Assembly (NCBI GenBank): GCA_020432045.1
Contig: JAGQHB010000056.1
Location: 1-64,000 of the forward strand
Direction of reading: 5' to 3'
DNA: 64,000 nt
DNA from: Dehalococcoidia bacterium
GTDB taxonomy: Bacteria; Chloroflexota; Dehalococcoidia; Tepidiformales; Tepidiformaceae
Under the pieces are notes generated by a model, which worked only from the letters and a program-made list of their open reading frames with translations, was not told the DNA's origin and searched no databases. The position numbers were made by a program, and so were the translations under genes. Positions within the stretch are counted from its first letter, which is position 1. Each line of letters opens with the position of its first letter. Shown piece by piece: positions 30,882-38,700 of this stretch.

Positions 30882-31400
30882 CTACTTGCGGCGGGCGGTG
30901 ACGGTCGCGAGGCTCGCAGCACCGGCAACACCAACGAGGGTGATGCCAGCGAGCATCCAGAGGAGCGGAAGCGATTGGTTGTTGGTGGCGAGACCTTCGC
31001 CGGTATCAGGTGGCTTGGGAAGAACGCTCGGCTGAGCGACGCGGACGACACCACTTGTCTGAAGGGCCCCACAAGTGACGTTGAGGGTGAGATCACCCGG
31101 GTTGGCGCCGGTCTGCACGGAGATGGTAGCGGTGCCGTCTCCAGCGGTGGTGAAGGTAGGAGTGAGGACAGTTCCACTACCGGATGCCACGGCAACGGTG
31201 CCGCTGACGCCAGGAGCTGCGTTGCCAGCAGCCGTGCGTGTGCTCACAGTGAAGCTGGCGACGGAGTTTGGCTGCACCGAGCCTGACGTGGGCACCACGG
31301 TGCAGACGCCGAGCGGCTCAGGGTATTGAGCAAACGCCATGCCAAACGGCAGCGCGGCCGCTGCGACGGCGATGATTGCGAAAAACCGGGCGATCTTCAT
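30882..31400 (-). CDS. Secreted Ig-like surface protein with LPxTG-like C-terminal anchor
   Basis: A 172-residue exported protein. It has a signal peptide (MKIARFF then a hydrophobic stretch, ending near FAQ at residue 25), a beta-rich Big_1-like domain with two cysteines (about residues 33-120), and a C-terminal sorting region. The latter is LPKPPDTGEG, a hydrophobic helix (LPLLWMLAGITLVGVAGAASL) and the basic tail TARRK. This resembles a sortase substrate with a variant motif. No sortase gene is in the window. GGGAGGGG precedes the ATG by about five bases. The function is unknown; a cell-surface role is inferred. Confidence 0.7.
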   Translation of the reverse strand: MKIARFFAIIAVAAAALPFGMAFAQYPEPLGVCTVVPTSGSVQPNSVASFTVSTRTAAGNAAPGVSGTVAVASGSGTVLTPTFTTAGDGTATISVQTGANPGDLTLNVTCGALQTSGVVRVAQPSVLPKPPDTGEGLATNNQSLPLLWMLAGITLVGVAGAASLATVTARRK

Positions 31401-31456: not shown

Positions 31457-32128
31457 CTACAAGTCCACAGGGCCTACCGGCGCAGTCTTTACGTGCGTGT
31501 CATCAGAATCGTCGCTCAGCGAATGCGGCGCAAGGGTGGTGCGTGACAAATTCGACTCAAAGTGGGGATCCGGAGACTGAGAATTCGGCCGGAGCCTGAT
31601 GGTGACCCAGCAGAGGGCCAGGCCGGCGAGAGCACCGAACGCAGCCGAAGCGCCAAGCGGAAGGGCAACAGGATCGGCCGTGGAAGCTGTGCGAGCGAGT
31701 CGCAAGCTCTGGGTATTGTCGAGTCCGGTGTCCTGCAAATAGGCGGGAAGGGAGCGGGCAATGGCATTCGCCATGGCCGTGGCATCACCCTGGCGTTTGG
31801 AGGTAGCGAACACGCGAATGAGGAGGCTTTGCGGCGCGGGGACGACCCGGACATCGTCCCGTATGCGGGCCGGGGCGACGCCGGTGATCGCGGACGCTCT
31901 CTCGACGACACCTGGCGCGAGTGCGAGGTCGACGTAGGTGAGTTGGAGCTCACGCGTGGGCGCAGGTCCGACGACGACCAGCGTGGCTTCCGCGCGATAT
32001 GGAGTGGGAATCAGGACGGCGACCATGACGGCCGCAACGGCGCCGCCGATGCCGGAACCGATGAGCGCCCAGAGCCAGCCTTCGTGTAACGATTCGGGCA
32101 CGGCCGGAAGGCGGAGCAATCGAGTCAC
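31457..32128 (-). CDS. Wzz-like polysaccharide chain-length/export protein
   Basis: A 223-residue membrane protein with two transmembrane helices (about residues 19-41 and 160-178). They flank an extracytoplasmic domain (TPYRAEATLVVVGP...), the arrangement of Wzz/CapA/YveK chain-length regulators. The C-terminal cytoplasmic tail is polar and unrelated to a tyrosine kinase. It starts the exopolysaccharide cluster, divergent from the sugar transferase gene. GTG at 32128 lies six bases after TAGCAT, with no ribosome-binding site. The membership is judged from topology and weak similarity, so it is tentative. Confidence 0.65.
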   Translation of the reverse strand: MTRLLRLPAVPESLHEGWLWALIGSGIGGAVAAVMVAVLIPTPYRAEATLVVVGPAPTRELQLTYVDLALAPGVVERASAITGVAPARIRDDVRVVPAPQSLLIRVFATSKRQGDATAMANAIARSLPAYLQDTGLDNTQSLRLARTASTADPVALPLGASAAFGALAGLALCWVTIRLRPNSQSPDPHFESNLSRTTLAPHSLSDDSDDTHVKTAPVGPVDL

Positions 32129-32140: not shown

Positions 32141-32279
32141 GCGCACGAGGAGGAGGGCGCGATGGTGGTGGGGGACGGGGTAGTACGAGAATGACGGCTG
32201 GGCTACCGTTACATCGAATCTGCGCCCGAGCGCACACCCTGGTTGCAATGTGGCACTAGAACGGCGGGGACAGGCGACG

Positions 32280-32984
32280 ATGAGCGCAGCAGAGCCGCGC
32301 GGATTGGGACCTGTTCCCCGTACCAGCACAGGGAGCCGGCCGATTCGCCTTACACCGTGGGACGTGAGACCGGCGCCGGAGCCGCACAAGGGGTACAACC
32401 TGAGCAAGCGGGCCGTGGATGTGGCGGGCGGAACTGTTCTACTCGTGGTGGCAGCGCCGGTTGTAGCCGGCGCCGCGGCTGTGGTCGCGGTAACAACGCG
32501 ATCATGGCCGTTTTATGTGCAGCGGCGAGTTGGCCAGGGCGGGCGGGAGTTCGCGATGCTCAAGGTCAGGACGATGCGTCCCGGGGCCGACCGCGAGGTA
32601 CCACTGACGCTGAACGAGACGGGTGGACCGACGTTTAAATCCACGGCTGACCCACGGGTGACGCCGATTGGCAAGTGGCTCCGCAGAACCTCCATCGATG
32701 AACTGCCACAGCTTGCGAACGTTGTGTTCGGCCAGTTGGCACTTGTTGGTCCGAGGCCAGGACTGCCGGATGAGGCTCGACAGTACACGCACGCCGAAGC
32801 CCGGCGACTCTCTGTGAAGCCGGGGTTGACCGGGATCTGGCAGGTTAGCGGCCGTAGCGACGTTCCGTTTCGGCGATGGATGGCGATGGATCGCGCCTAC
32901 CTTCGCAAACGGTCTCTCGCGTTCGACCTGGCGTTGCTGGCGCGCACTCCGTGGACGGTCGTGACGATGCGAGGCGCACGGTGA
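32280..32984 (+). CDS. Polyprenyl-phosphate sugar-1-phosphate transferase
   Basis: A 234-residue phosphoglycosyl transferase of the monotopic (PglC/WcaJ C-terminal) type. It starts polysaccharide synthesis by moving a sugar-1-phosphate from a UDP-sugar to undecaprenyl phosphate. One re-entrant or membrane helix (about residues 45-70) is followed by VQRRVGQGGREFAMLKVRTM, RRTSIDELPQLANVVFG, VGPRPGLPDE and KPGLTGIWQVSGRS, all family signatures including the DE dyad. ATG at 32280 is chosen (GGGGACAGG upstream); an in-frame GTG at 32250 is possible. It is followed by a glycosyltransferase gene. Confidence 0.92.
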   Translation: MSAAEPRGLGPVPRTSTGSRPIRLTPWDVRPAPEPHKGYNLSKRAVDVAGGTVLLVVAAPVVAGAAAVVAVTTRSWPFYVQRRVGQGGREFAMLKVRTMRPGADREVPLTLNETGGPTFKSTADPRVTPIGKWLRRTSIDELPQLANVVFGQLALVGPRPGLPDEARQYTHAEARRLSVKPGLTGIWQVSGRSDVPFRRWMAMDRAYLRKRSLAFDLALLARTPWTVVTMRGAR

Positions 32985-33008: not shown

Positions 33009-33935
33009 GTGGGTGAGCCGGCGACGGTCGACATCATCATCGTTTCATTTAACTCCGGTGATTTCCTGGGTGAGTGCCTGGACTCGATCGGCTGTTCCAT
33101 GGCGCCAGGGATAGATGTGCGCGTCCTGGTGGTGGACAACGCTTCGACAGACGGGACGCCGGACCTGGCAGAGGCACGCCCAGAACCGTGGTTACGCGTG
33201 CTACGCAATCAACGAAACCTGGGGTTCGCCACGGCCGTGAATGTTGGGCTCAGGGAAACCCGTGGAGCGTTCGTGTTGCTCCTGAACCCTGACACGGTGG
33301 TCTCACCGACGGCGATTCGTTCGGCGGTGACGTTTCTACAAGAGCGGGAGGATGCCGCGATCGTGTCTCCGAGACTGGTGCTACAAGACGGGACGATCGA
33401 CGCAGGGTGCCACCGTGGATTCCCGACGCCATGGGCATCATTCACATACCTGGCCGGGCTGGAGAAACTGTTTCCGAAGATGCGGCTGTTCAACAGGTAC
33501 CACCGGTGGGACCTGGCGCTGGACGAGGTTCATCCGGTGGATGCGGTTTCAGGAGCATTCATGCTGTTCCGGCGGGACCTTGTCGACCGGATCGGGCTGT
33601 TGGACGAACGGTTCTTCATGTACGCGGAGGATGTCGACTTTTGCATGCGCGCGAAACGGGATGGCGGACTGGTGTATTACGACCCGCGCGAAGAAGTCGT
33701 GCATATCAAAGGGACGAGCACCGGGATCAAGCGGCATTCGGACCACATCTCACGGGCCAACCTGGAGACGCGGAGGCGGGCGCTCAACGCTTTCTACGAT
33801 TCAACCAAGCTCTTTTACGACAAACACTATGCAGATAATCACCCGCGCGTACTGAAATGGGCTGTGCATGGGTCGGTAGAACTGCTGAGACCGCTGGCGA
33901 ACTGGCGGCTGAAGCGGCGAATGCGCGCTAGCTGA
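33009..33935 (+). CDS. Family 2 glycosyltransferase (rhamnosyltransferase-like)
   Basis: A 308-residue GT2 glycosyltransferase with a GT-A fold. It shows the N-terminal VDIIIVSFNSGDFLGECLDS, a nucleotide-binding VVDNASTDGT, the DxD-like LLNPDT and the acceptor-side EDVDFCMRAKRDG. It resembles WbbL-type rhamnosyltransferases that extend lipid-linked oligosaccharides. GTG at 33009 is used. It lies 24 bases after the phosphoglycosyl transferase gene, so it is likely the second sugar-adding step. It converges with the large flippase-polymerase gene. Confidence 0.88.
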   Translation: MGEPATVDIIIVSFNSGDFLGECLDSIGCSMAPGIDVRVLVVDNASTDGTPDLAEARPEPWLRVLRNQRNLGFATAVNVGLRETRGAFVLLLNPDTVVSPTAIRSAVTFLQEREDAAIVSPRLVLQDGTIDAGCHRGFPTPWASFTYLAGLEKLFPKMRLFNRYHRWDLALDEVHPVDAVSGAFMLFRRDLVDRIGLLDERFFMYAEDVDFCMRAKRDGGLVYYDPREEVVHIKGTSTGIKRHSDHISRANLETRRRALNAFYDSTKLFYDKHYADNHPRVLKWAVHGSVELLRPLANWRLKRRMRAS

Positions 33936-36552
33936 GGGCCTCGCCAGCAACTGGATGTCGAGGCCCGAGCAGCGTTACGCCACGCCGCCAGAGCGACAGC
34001 CAGCGGGCGCGGGGGGTCGTGAGGACGATAAGGAAGGGTACATCGGCCATCCAAACGCCGTGGACAGTCCAGTAGTTGAGGTAGATGGCGTAGACGAGCC
34101 AGAAGGCGGCGTAGCTATAGAGCACAATCGCCGTCGGCGACCAGCTATACCGCAGCCATCGCCAGGCCAGGCCGTTGGCAGCACCGAAAAACAGCGACAG
34201 AAGCACTACACCGGAAAGGCCGAAGTCGGCATACCAGGGGCCAACGTAGGTGGTCGTGACCTGCTGGAACTGGGCCGTCGGACGGGTAACGGTTTCGAGG
34301 TCCTTTGCGGGCACGAACCGGTCGGCGAACTTGGTGGAGTACAGGCCAGGGGTGGGGTCGAGCTCATACGCATGGGAGCGGGTGAGGTCGGCGAGAGTCT
34401 GGAAGCTAACGGACGTGGCCATTTGCACGGGGATCGTCCACTGGAGCGCGTATGGCCTGCCGGGGCGGAGCTCCGTGTCGAGATGGCTCTTAAAGGGATT
34501 GTCCGACTGCTGATCAACACGGATGAAGAAGACTGTCGATGAGCCGGCGACCAGGAGAATGGTGGCAGCAAGCGCGAGCAGGCCCAAGCGGCGCGGCACA
34601 CCCCGGTACAGGATGACGGCAAATCCGCCGATGACACATGCGGAGAATGGGTAGAGGCGTCCGCCACTGAGCACCAGGGGCACCAGTGCGGCGAAGGCGA
34701 CGGCAGCGAATACGAGGCGTTGGCGCCACGTGGGTGCGAGGACGATCCCGGGGATCGCAACGATCAGGGCCACGTATCCCAGGCGCGTACCAATGAGCGA
34801 CGAAAGGCCGAACGCCTCGAAGCGGGCCACGTCGATTTGATCGGACAGGAGGGGGATGACGCCGAGTTGCGAGAAATAGCGGATCCATGCGGCAACGCCA
34901 ACGAGGGCGCAGCCCGCGACGAGGGCAATGGGAACGGGCGGGCGCTGAAACGGGGACCGAAGTTCATTGAACCCTGTCCGTCCTGCAGTGACTGCGGCGC
35001 CAAGTGTGAGGGCGGCAGGCGGCAGTGAGACCAGCCACCACATCTCCGCGTTCCATTCGAACACGGGAAAGAGTGGAAACTGGGCGATGCCCAGGGCAGC
35101 GGTCCATGTGAGGGAGAAGATGGCGGCGGGCGCCATGAAGTCGTAACGGCAGGAACGGAGTACGAAAACGAGCGCGATGGGGACCGCGAGCAGCGGGAGG
35201 AAACCGGTCGCGGGTGTCGTGAAGGAGAAATTGGCGATGGACAAGGCGAGAACGGCACCGGCAACGGCGGCGAGTGCAACCGTACGGACACGAGGTTCGA
35301 GGAGTGGGCCCGCGCCACGGTGGGCACGAAGGCCCTGGAGGACAGCCCAGAGAATGAGTGCCGCGAGCAGAAGCTCGCTTACGGCGACTGCAAAACCTGC
35401 GCCGGAGACACCGTATTCGTCTGTGAACGCCCAGATCAGGAAGAGGGCTGCGCCGGTGGCGATCCCCCAGATTGCCGCGACGAGGCGTTCCTGGCCGAGC
35501 GAAAGGGCAAGGCTGAGGAAGATCGCGTTGGGGGCGACGAAGAGCGTCGCGAGGGCACCCCAGCGGAGGTAGGCATCGAGCGAGGGCGACGAGGCACCGA
35601 AAAGGAAATCGGAGAACGTACCCGGGAAAAGGAGGAGGGCAGCCACCGGCAGGGAGACAAGTCCAACGCTGACCGCAGCAAAGCGCGTTGCGAGCCGGAC
35701 GGCGGCCTCGGGTGACTGGTAAACCCGGCGCGCTATGGCTGGCCATGTTGCAACCGCGAGCGCGCCCGGAAGGAGCGTGGCAGCCGAATAGAGGTTGAAC
35801 CCATCGACAACTTTTCCGGTGGCTTCCGCGTTGAGGATGGCGCCGGGGACGATGACCTGGCCACGGAGGTAAACGATCTGGAGCAGCCCGATGACGGAGA
35901 GGGGCCATGAGCGGAGGACCCAGGCGAACCCGTAACGACCGCGAGTGGCGAACCTTGGGAGGCGGACGGCGCCGTAAAGAAGCACGGCCTCGACGGTGCG
36001 GGCGAGGGCGAGTGAGCCGAGGAGTGCAGCTGGTTCGGTGCTGACTCCCGCCGCGGTGACGGCAGCGAGCGCACCCGCGACGAATCCAAACCCGGCAGCG
36101 ACAGCGAGAACGGTGCCATCGCCATCGGCCGCGAGCTTGCTCGTGAGCAGGCCTGTCGCGGCAAATGCGGGAATCATGGCGGCGGCGACGGCGAGCGGCT
36201 GACGCCAGGCGGGATCGGCGGCGACCGCAGCTGCTACGGCGAGGCCGAGGCACGCAACCAGGCCGAGGCCGAGTTTGAGAAGTACGAGCTGCCGGAACTC
36301 GCGGCGTCCGGGCGGCGTCACGGGAAATTCGCGAAGTGCTGCCTGGCTTATTCCGAGGTCTGCGGCGGCTGCCACGAGGAGTGCGACGGAGGCCGAGACA
36401 CCGATGATTCCCGCGGCCTCGAAGCCCAGTTGGCGCGTGGCGACGACGACGACGAGAAGCGGCAGCAGTGCGCCGAGGCCACGCTGGAGTCCAGTGCCGA
36501 CGGTGACGGAAGCGAGGCCGCGCCAGCGAACGGCGTTTTCGGGGTTCGTCAC
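33928..36552 (-). CDS. Fused polysaccharide flippase and O-antigen-type polymerase (Wzx-Wzy-like)
   Basis: An 874-residue, very hydrophobic protein that appears to join two export functions. Residues about 1-420 look like a Wzx/MATE-type oligosaccharide flippase (GTGLQRGLGALLPLLVVVVA, about 12 helices, QERLVAAIWG). Residues about 430-874 look like an oligosaccharide repeat-unit polymerase: YDFMAPAAIFSLTW, LGIAQFPLF, SGGRLYPFSACVIGG, a large extracytoplasmic loop near 700-780 (TRSHAYELDPTPGLYSTKF), and closing helices. The GTG at 36552 is chosen because it lies 14 bases after the upstream glycosyltransferase stop with GAAGG suitably spaced; a longer 945-codon frame overlaps that gene. The assignment rests on motifs and topology. 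Confidence 0.72.
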   Translation of the reverse strand: MTNPENAVRWRGLASVTVGTGLQRGLGALLPLLVVVVATRQLGFEAAGIIGVSASVALLVAAAADLGISQAALREFPVTPPGRREFRQLVLLKLGLGLVACLGLAVAAAVAADPAWRQPLAVAAAMIPAFAATGLLTSKLAADGDGTVLAVAAGFGFVAGALAAVTAAGVSTEPAALLGSLALARTVEAVLLYGAVRLPRFATRGRYGFAWVLRSWPLSVIGLLQIVYLRGQVIVPGAILNAEATGKVVDGFNLYSAATLLPGALAVATWPAIARRVYQSPEAAVRLATRFAAVSVGLVSLPVAALLLFPGTFSDFLFGASSPSLDAYLRWGALATLFVAPNAIFLSLALSLGQERLVAAIWGIATGAALFLIWAFTDEYGVSGAGFAVAVSELLLAALILWAVLQGLRAHRGAGPLLEPRVRTVALAAVAGAVLALSIANFSFTTPATGFLPLLAVPIALVFVLRSCRYDFMAPAAIFSLTWTAALGIAQFPLFPVFEWNAEMWWLVSLPPAALTLGAAVTAGRTGFNELRSPFQRPPVPIALVAGCALVGVAAWIRYFSQLGVIPLLSDQIDVARFEAFGLSSLIGTRLGYVALIVAIPGIVLAPTWRQRLVFAAVAFAALVPLVLSGGRLYPFSACVIGGFAVILYRGVPRRLGLLALAATILLVAGSSTVFFIRVDQQSDNPFKSHLDTELRPGRPYALQWTIPVQMATSVSFQTLADLTRSHAYELDPTPGLYSTKFADRFVPAKDLETVTRPTAQFQQVTTTYVGPWYADFGLSGVVLLSLFFGAANGLAWRWLRYSWSPTAIVLYSYAAFWLVYAIYLNYWTVHGVWMADVPFLIVLTTPRARWLSLWRRGVTLLGPRHPVAGEALS

Positions 36553-36565
36553 CGGGCTACTGCCT

Positions 36566-37588
36566 TCATCGGACGAACCAGCGACGACGGATAGACGACG
36601 GCGAAACGGTCCGGCGACGGGCGAGGGAACGGCGCGCTTCGCGGGCGGCAGGCGCCGCCGCAACAAATAGCCGGACGGCGCGAACGAAGCGGACCGGAGA
36701 TACGAGCAGCGTGACAGACACGAGCCCGGCCTGGCGGAAGACGATGCGGGGCAGGTCGGGCGCAAGCGTGGCGAGTGACTCGTATTTCAGCAGCAGGATC
36801 CATTCGTTTTTGAGGGAGTGGACCCGGATGTGGGCTGGCTTGTGCCGCTCGTTGCGCAGGTAGTCTCTGAGGCTGCGTATATAGCCGGAGCCGCCGAGAC
36901 CCCGGCCGGTGCGGGCGTGGTAGCCGGACGCTGCCGGGACGACCCAACACTGCCAGCTTCGAAGTCGTAGCCGCCACGCGAGGTCTATGTCGTCCTTGTA
37001 CATGAAAAACGAGGGATCGAGCACCGGCCCATCGGGGCTTACGTCCTCGACGGCGGCGCGGCGCAGGAAGAGCGCAGCGCCACTAACAGCAAAGACTTCT
37101 TCAGGCTGATCAAGGGCGTCGTACGCCATTCCTTCGCCGCGATCGTGAGCGCCGCGATCACGGCGGACGATGATGCCGGCTGAATCAACTATGCGCGGGG
37201 TAACCGAAGTCTCCGGGACTCCGCGAAACAACACCCCCGATGCACACCCGGCGGCCGGGTGCGCGGTCATGAAGTCCAAAAGGGGTCCGAGATAGCTGCC
37301 GTCGACCACCAGGTCGGCGTTATGGAAAAGGATGAACTCGCCACGAGACTGCGCGTAGCCACGGTTGATGGCACCGGTGAAGCCGGAGTTCCAGCCAACG
37401 TCGTCGACGACGAGGCGCGCTCGAAGAGGCAGGAGAAGGGCAAGGCCGTTCGCCGGGTCGTTATTGACGACGATCACTTCGAGGTGGAGGTCCGGGATAG
37501 TCAACAGGCGTTGGACAGCCTCGACGACGGGTGCGGCCGGGCCATAGGCCGGGATGATGACGCTAACCTGGGGCCGCAGCGAGGTCAC
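36566..37588 (-). CDS. Family 2 glycosyltransferase
   Basis: A 340-residue GT2 glycosyltransferase: QVSVIIPAYGPAAPVVEAVQ at the N-terminus, VIVVNNDP, the DxD-like FHNADLVVD and SFFMYKDDIDLAWRLRLR in the acceptor half. A hydrophobic or basic tail near 275-340 may attach it to the membrane. It should add a sugar to the lipid-linked repeat unit. GTG at 37588 is chosen because the family N-terminus starts there and a TACCAT box ends six bases upstream. It is divergent from selD and 14 bases upstream of the flippase-polymerase gene. Confidence 0.88.
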   Translation of the reverse strand: MTSLRPQVSVIIPAYGPAAPVVEAVQRLLTIPDLHLEVIVVNNDPANGLALLLPLRARLVVDDVGWNSGFTGAINRGYAQSRGEFILFHNADLVVDGSYLGPLLDFMTAHPAAGCASGVLFRGVPETSVTPRIVDSAGIIVRRDRGAHDRGEGMAYDALDQPEEVFAVSGAALFLRRAAVEDVSPDGPVLDPSFFMYKDDIDLAWRLRLRSWQCWVVPAASGYHARTGRGLGGSGYIRSLRDYLRNERHKPAHIRVHSLKNEWILLLKYESLATLAPDLPRIVFRQAGLVSVTLLVSPVRFVRAVRLFVAAAPAAREARRSLARRRTVSPSSIRRRWFVR

Positions 37589-37594
37589 TCTGCA

Positions 37595-37600
37595 ATGGTA
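37595..37600 (-). promoter_or_regulatory. -10 element (TACCAT), leaderless promoter
   Basis: On the minus strand TACCAT is followed by six bases and the GTG of the glycosyltransferase gene. It is divergent from the selD promoter. Confidence 0.5.
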
Positions 37601-37647: not shown

Positions 37648-38700
37648 ATGACGAAGGAAGAGATCTTCCGGCTGACGGAGATGACCAGTTGCGGCGGGTG
37701 AGCATCGAAAGCAGGGCCGGGCGCCCTGGCCGAGGTACTCGCTCCCCTCTCTGACATCTTCGATAGCGACGCACACCCGGACCTGCTGGTCGGGATGGGA
37801 GTCGCGGACGATGCGGCCGTGTACCGGGTGAATGCCCGGACGGCCGTGGTGGCAACGCTCGACTTTTTCGCACCGGTGGTGGATGACCCGTACACATTTG
37901 GCGCAATCGCCGCGGCGAACGCGATGTCGGATGTATTTGCTATGGGTGGCGAGGTGGTGCTGGCACTGAATATCGCCGCGTTCCCTGAAGACCTGCCCAC
38001 CGCTGTGCAGTCAGCAATCCTGCGAGGTGGAGCGGAAAAGGTTCGCGAAGCGGGCGGCATCGTGGCGGGTGGCCACACGGTCTGGGACGTGGAGCCAAAG
38101 TTCGGGCTGAGCGTGTTCGGAAGGGTGCACCCGGGCCGGATCATGCGGAAGGCGGGTCTGAAACCGGGGCAGGTCCTGTGCCTGACCAAGCCACTTGGGA
38201 CGGGCACTATCCTGTCAGCGGCGAAAAACGGGAGAGCGGAAGCGACGTGGGTGGAATCGGCAACGGAATCGATGCTTCGGCTCAACCGGCACGCCATGCA
38301 TCTCGCGCGGACGGCAAAGGTGACGACTGCGACGGACGTCACGGGCTTCGGATTGCTGGGACACCTGTGGGAGATGTGCGAGCGGTCAGGGGTTGCGGCG
38401 GAGATCAGTGCGAACGCGGCGCCCTTCCTTCCGGGCGCGGAGGAGTGCTCGCTAATGGGTGTGCACACGGTGGGCGAGATACGAAATATGGAGTGGGCCG
38501 GCGACAACATCTTGTTCGGCCCCGGAGTATCCGACGCTCAGCGGGCCTTGCTCTTCGACCCACAGACCTCCGGCGGCCTGCTCCTGGCGTGCAGCCCGCG
38601 ACGGGTAGAAGCACTGCGGGCTGCGTTCGCGAAAGATGGTGAGCCCTTCTGGGTGATCGGCCGGGTGAGGAGTGGGACACCCGGAATCCAGGTCGACTGA
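37648..38700 (+). CDS. selD: Selenide, water dikinase, itself a selenoprotein (UGA = Sec at codon 18)
   Basis: SelD makes selenophosphate from selenide and ATP for selenocysteine and selenouridine synthesis. A plain ORF call starts at 37795 and loses the active site. Reading from ATG 37648 in the same frame gives MTKEEIFRLTEMTSCGG, then TGA at 37699-37701, then ASKAGPGALAEVLAPL and the known body. The UGA occupies the catalytic Cys/Sec position of SelD (family pattern C-G-G-U/C-A-x-K). The rest is canonical: DDAAVY, DFFAPVVDDPYTFG, NAMSDVFAMGG, GGHTV, DVTGFGLLGHL and DPQTSGGLL. The product is 350 residues including Sec. A hairpin just after the UGA fits a bacterial SECIS. SelA, SelB and tRNA-Sec must lie outside the window. 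Confidence 0.9.
37699..37728 (+). promoter_or_regulatory. UGA Sec codon and putative bacterial SECIS hairpin in selD
   Basis: The UGA at 37699-37701 is followed by a 6-bp stem (CAGGGC 37712-37717 with GCCCTG 37723-37728) and a five-base loop CGGGC. The loop has a G in its second position, and the loop begins 16 bases after the UGA. These features fit the loose bacterial SECIS consensus read by SelB. Confidence 0.7.

Follow-up and report, generated by a model that had tools for sequence, protein, structure and literature searches.

The 64,000-nucleotide stretch of DNA analyzed here (the window) raises the question of whether a polysaccharide flippase and a repeat-unit polymerase, usually the products of two genes, can be encoded as one protein. 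An earlier note on this DNA described a single 874-residue open reading frame without an internal stop, and translation of the minus strand bears this out. The gene (33928-36552, minus strand, stop codon included) is open from a GTG start at 36552 to a stop at 33928, giving 874 codons with no internal stops, and orthologues are present in three other genomes. Its start lies a few bases 3' of the stop (36566) of an upstream family 2 glycosyltransferase gene, its 3' end overlaps the end of a convergent glycosyltransferase gene (33935) by a few bases, and its third-position GC of 0.75 is similar to that of the neighboring genes. Two other readings of the region were discarded. The plus strand of 33928-36552 contains in-frame stops, and an extended frame of 945 aa, starting with a TTG at 36765, was dropped because it overlaps the glycosyltransferase gene ending at 36566. 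From the evidence below, we consider it very probable that in this gene a Wzx-type flippase and a Wzy-type repeat-unit polymerase are naturally fused head to tail, within a small polysaccharide cluster of the Wzx/Wzy type.

Identity of the two halves

Judged by its sequence, the C-terminal half of the protein (residues 418-874; 33931-35301, minus strand) is a predicted oligosaccharide repeat-unit polymerase of the Wzy type, as described by TIGR04370. Against the cut-off of 40 bits for this family, the whole protein scores 43 bits and the isolated half 46 bits, and TIGR04370 likewise matches all four members of the C-half family (E 1); PF01901, at 17.6 bits, does not reach its cut-off of 24.2 bits. 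When the C half was compared by hhalign with four unfused polymerases, which had been found with TIGR04370 and are thus independent of the fusion as a query, the result was 96.4% (E 1.1e-9, 185 columns), against 0.4% for the comparison with unfused flippases. Among the features that define Wzy proteins are a large external loop and an arginine conserved at the outer face. The Wzy-like motifs and the large external loop that had been claimed for this half were both located: YDFMAPAAIFSLTW occupies residues 470-483, SGGRLYPFS occupies residues 629-637, and the loop extends over approximately 100 residues (677-776; 34225-34524, minus strand) according to hydropathy and a positive-inside count on four sequences. 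Alignments demonstrate that the SGGR motif (residues 629-632; 34657-34668, minus strand) is invariant in four relatives, and its arginine, R632, aligns with the SSR (SSSR) of an unfused polymerase. Structure prediction was less informative for this half. When modelled alone, it reached a mean pLDDT of 45.9, which is poor, and a fold search with this poor model against the PDB gave no match at E <0.3 and no credible GT-C or other fold; this outcome is given no weight in either direction.

The similarity of polymerases to ligases invites a different reading, in which the C half acts as a ligase, or moves the flipped sugar unit to some other acceptor instead of polymerizing it. According to the available text of PMC10920833, polymerases and ligases have the GT-C fold in common. 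Their subfamilies are not separable by sequence with certainty. Against this stand the score above cut-off for the repeat-unit polymerase family, the O-antigen ligase family PF04932, which was reported for none of the four C-half members at E 1, and the Wzz-type protein in the cluster, which suggests chain-length control. We therefore regard a ligase as an unlikely assignment and retain the polymerase.

The N-terminal half (residues 1-410; 35323-36552, minus strand) is a predicted flippase of the MOP superfamily (Wzx-type) with 12 helices, an assignment that draws on PF01943, hhalign and a partial model. The isolated half scores 28.6 bits against a PF01943 cut-off of 28.2 bits, and the fusion scores 29.8 bits in the genome search with the same family; PF01943 is unreported at E 1 when the whole 874-residue protein is scanned against Pfam, and an NCBIfam scan of the N half gives no match. 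Among the five N-half family members, two of which are fragments, PF01943 matches one and PF13440 two. The hhalign comparison with five unfused flippases returned 99.0% (E 9.5e-18, 363 columns), a value that is partly circular since four of these five sequences were first found using the fusion as query, while the comparison with unfused polymerases returned 0.1%. At the level of sequence, then, each half matches unfused proteins of its own class in profile comparisons but not those of its partner's class, and each half also exceeds the cut-off of a curated profile for its own class.

Structural comparison extends the assignment of the N half. Twelve long helices are present in the model, with residues 1-215 at pLDDT <50. 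The fold match is confined to residues 211-414 (pLDDT mostly 63-87) and leaves out the N-terminal lobe (1-215); within it, the model resembles MATE, MurJ and WzxE structures at Z values of about 15-22. A fold search of this well-modelled part matched the MATE structure 3w4t (Z 22.0, 257 residues, 3.4 A) and WzxE (9g9m_A; Z 20.6, 195 aligned residues, 2.6 A). A sequence-based profile search of solved structures with either half as query gave nothing at E 1. The Wzx/MATE-like character that the earlier note had read from the topology of this half is consistent with these results. Essential charged residues of WzxE are named in the available text of PMC11706664.

A second alternative concerns the activity of this half. 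The chain might be single while one half is not a working enzyme; the flippase half, for example, could be an anchor or docking part, with a separate Wzx encoded elsewhere doing the flipping. The weak score of the N half against flippase profiles and the further flippase-like genes in the genome would fit such an arrangement. The N half is, on the other hand, conserved from end to end (36-44% identity) with its helices kept, its fold is retained where it is well modelled, and the examined cluster region holds no second flippase gene. On balance, we give a non-working flippase half only a slim chance, and we infer that both halves are active and act on the same substrate.

Topology and conservation of the junction

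The stretch between the halves was evaluated by a topology estimate and by the ends of the model helices. The linker core (residues 411-417; 35302-35322, minus strand) lies inside a basic stretch of about residues 406-425 that is read as cytoplasmic, and in the model one flanking helix ends at 411 and the next starts at 419. A four-sequence AlphaFold model of the whole protein has a pLDDT of 48.4 and is usable only for residues of about 216-411. Helix assignments and a positive-inside count on four sequences fit 12 helices per half and a cytoplasmic linker; the count missed one helix near 174-204, and the segment 702-720 is doubtful. By eye, a comparable helix pair precedes the matching stretch in the unfused TIGR04370 polymerases of two loci from the class (L121 and L034). 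Since these proteins start with a similar helix pair, the helix at about 419-444 would belong to the polymerase, and the fusion would consist of two complete proteins. We accordingly read both joined proteins as complete, with 12 predicted helices each, cytoplasmic termini and a short cytoplasmic linker between them. Such a join may need no extra helix because Wzx would end, and Wzy begin, in the cytoplasm.

The fusion was found in three other genera of the family (genomes G009, G004 and G002) at 42-46% identity. G009 covers residues 8-865 and thus the whole fusion, G004 covers residues 205-857 on one contig and 13-228 on another, and G002 covers residues 9-679 before a contig end cuts off the rest. 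The earlier note had named separate frames with a stop at this position in relatives as evidence against a fusion; none was found, and all three orthologues read through the junction in one frame. An internal start codon with a ribosome-site-like stretch common to the four fusion genomes is absent from the junction; G002 alone of the four has such a start, and there it falls within the last flippase helix. The open junction is kept in four genera, and sequencing error and chance are therefore excluded as its source. That a frameshift or assembly error has merged two neighboring genes is scarcely credible, for while the assemblies of the three named relatives derive from metagenomes and a separate wzx directly followed by wzy does occur in the class, four separate assemblies at 42-46% identity carry the same open junction and the third-position GC of 0.75 is as in the neighbors.

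The distribution of the fusion was surveyed in samples of increasing breadth. Among the 38 genomes of the family, TIGR04370 matches 15 at E 0.001, and only the four fusions combine both parts in a long frame. A 796-residue frame with a TIGR04370 match in genome G015 was considered as a second fusion and rejected, its first 300 or so residues being, by eye, without hydrophobic helices. The fusion profile matches 5 of 393 genomes sampled from the class at E 1e-10 (the four fusions plus G092, which has the flippase only) and 7 of 400 sampled from the phylum at E 1e-6 (the window's own genome plus six with the flippase only). Both samples are draws rather than whole groups, and neither holds a fusion beyond the four; the survey was restricted to this phylum, the Chloroflexota. 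A first scan of genome contigs with the single fusion protein gave no match, and a scan with the fusion alignment gave three loci: CAMAUF010000011.1, JANXYE010000310.1 (Chloroflexi bacterium) and JADLBJ010000041.1 (Dehalococcoidia bacterium), which correspond to the fusions of G009, G004 and G002. Plasmid records searched by tblastn contain no match to the fusion. A search of the open-access literature found no natural Wzx-Wzy fusion; an earlier annotation may exist in subscription papers or protein databases, which lay outside its scope.

Gene cluster and genome context

The genes around the fusion are those of a polysaccharide cluster. Upstream and in the same direction is a family 2 glycosyltransferase (36566-37600, minus strand, start not fixed; PF00535, 63.1 bits). 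On the other side, a convergent family 2 glycosyltransferase (33009-33935, plus strand; PF00535, 83.1 bits), the stop of which overlaps the end of the fusion, is accompanied by a priming phosphoglycosyltransferase of the bacterial sugar transferase family (32250-32984, plus strand; PF02397, 185.4 bits). Further along lies a gene for a Wzz-like chain-length protein without a kinase domain (31457-32128, minus strand). This protein has no Pfam or NCBIfam match, and its assignment comes from its similarity to the Wzz+kinase protein (PF02706) of the G004 cluster, with which it shares 27% identity over 140 residues. Beside it, a small secreted-looking protein is encoded at 30882-31400 (minus strand), with a near-cut-off match to the Filamin repeat (26.6 vs 26.9 bits).

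Parts of this arrangement recur. Each of the four fusion genomes has a glycosyltransferase gene ahead of the fusion (confirmed by Pfam scan in G009 and G002, by sequence only in G004). Beyond the fusion-glycosyltransferase pair, and in the opposite direction, all four also carry a flanking gene that we take to be selD (37711-38700, plus strand), identified by orthologue search and neighbor maps; in G004, two frames lie between. In G009 and G004, the next gene after the fusion is phosphodiesterase-like (L010:12884-14323 and L011:3172-4719), and no such gene was seen beside the fusion in the window; the protein of G009 has a weak match to PF01663, below cut-off.

The constancy of the selD neighbor allowed the corresponding position to be inspected in genomes of the family without the fusion. 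The gene is present in 29 of the 38 family genomes, and its flank was fetched in 16, several of the flanks being short at contig ends and selD itself being among the filtered ORFs in 12. At E 1e-6, blastp gave no match in any of the 16 flanks to the fusion or to the glycosyltransferases, phosphoglycosyltransferase and Wzz-like protein of its cluster, and the readable flanks carry other genes. The cluster is therefore absent from the readable flanks, and a separate-gene ancestor was not found there.

The claim that no separate wzx or wzy gene exists holds for the cluster region, as judged from ORFs of at least 200 aa at 28-48 kb, and fails for the genome, where unfused copies exist elsewhere. 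The Pfam scan near the fusion covered four ORFs of at least 200 aa and one of 172 aa rather than every ORF of the window. Elsewhere in the window's genome, unfused flippase-like proteins matching PF01943/PF13440 are encoded on contigs C63, C68 and C41, and contigs C63 and C87 encode Wzy_C proteins. The region of C63 near 48-64 kb is a second polysaccharide locus with separate Wzy_C and flippase genes. Given these unfused genes, the fusion belongs to a single cluster, and the cell may have other flippase-polymerase pairs besides it.

Relation to known pathways and proposed mechanism

The cluster resembles the pathway with separate Wzx and Wzy proteins, such as the WzxE/WzyE system of enterobacterial common antigen, in that a MOP flippase, a repeat-unit polymerase, a priming phosphoglycosyltransferase, glycosyltransferases and a Wzz-type protein are clustered; it differs in that flippase and polymerase are one polypeptide. 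The fusion is a real, conserved variant of the known Wzx/Wzy pathway. The closest arrangement of separate genes within the class is that of the unfused wzx-wzy neighbors of loci L119, L120 and L055, where the flippase also comes first and few bases lie between the genes, but where a stop codon separates wzx from wzy. The L055 proteins do not match the half profiles (L119 and L120 were outside that search) and are only distantly related to the fusion. The simplest origin of the fusion would be the loss of a stop between adjacent wzx and wzy genes.

Fusion of a polysaccharide flippase to another polytopic membrane protein also has a parallel in the class. Single-frame YfhO-Polysacc_synt fusions (PF09586 + PF01943) were observed at L014:540-4520 (genome G052) and L015:5798-9829 (G091); unlike in the Wzx-Wzy fusion, the flippase is C-terminal, preceded by YfhO as its N-terminal partner, and the frames have 1327 and 1344 residues. 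At L136:2-2971 (G039), a flippase match covers residues 512-989 of a frame that is truncated where the locus ends, and further long YfhO frames (1292-1425 aa) occur in G064 and G123.

Family membership of the encoded proteins suggests how the cluster might operate. The phosphoglycosyltransferase would load the first sugar on undecaprenyl phosphate, and the family 2 glycosyltransferases would extend the lipid-linked sugar. Most likely, the N-terminal 12-helix half would then flip the lipid-linked repeat unit, and the C-terminal 12-helix half would polymerize the flipped units at the outer face, where the conserved arginines of SGGR and others would lie; the Wzz-like protein probably sets the chain length. 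With the halves held at 1:1, the tie may increase the number of flipped units available locally for polymerization and speed their hand-over. It is plausible, as the earlier note suggested, that the fusion couples translocation to polymerization.

How such a protein would meet its Wzz partner is less straightforward. In the available text of PMC10030265, a Wzx-Wzy-Wzz complex is proposed from genetics, and the cavity of the Wzz octamer is given as about 57 A against a WzyE about 50 A wide. With these dimensions, the fused flippase would need to sit outside the ring, or the ring would be different. In the WzyE system described there, Wzy alone occupies the cavity of eight Wzz, unlike what a fused flippase and polymerase would present. 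We offer tentatively, as a possibility that we hold to be somewhat unlikely, that the fusion works as one 24-helix machine, which passes each flipped unit directly to the polymerase and is too big for a closed Wzz ring of the WzyE type, so that the ring would be larger, open or placed otherwise.

The size puzzle that a fused flippase poses for a closed Wzz ring, as the available text of PMC10030265 describes it for WzyE, is itself testable. The union of two normally separate membrane proteins in one allows a test of whether flipping and chain-joining cooperate, and the fusion offers a fixed 1:1 object with which to study structure and to assay coupled flipping and polymerization in vitro. A conserved natural Wzx-Wzy fusion serves, in addition, as independent evolutionary support for the closeness of flippase and polymerase.
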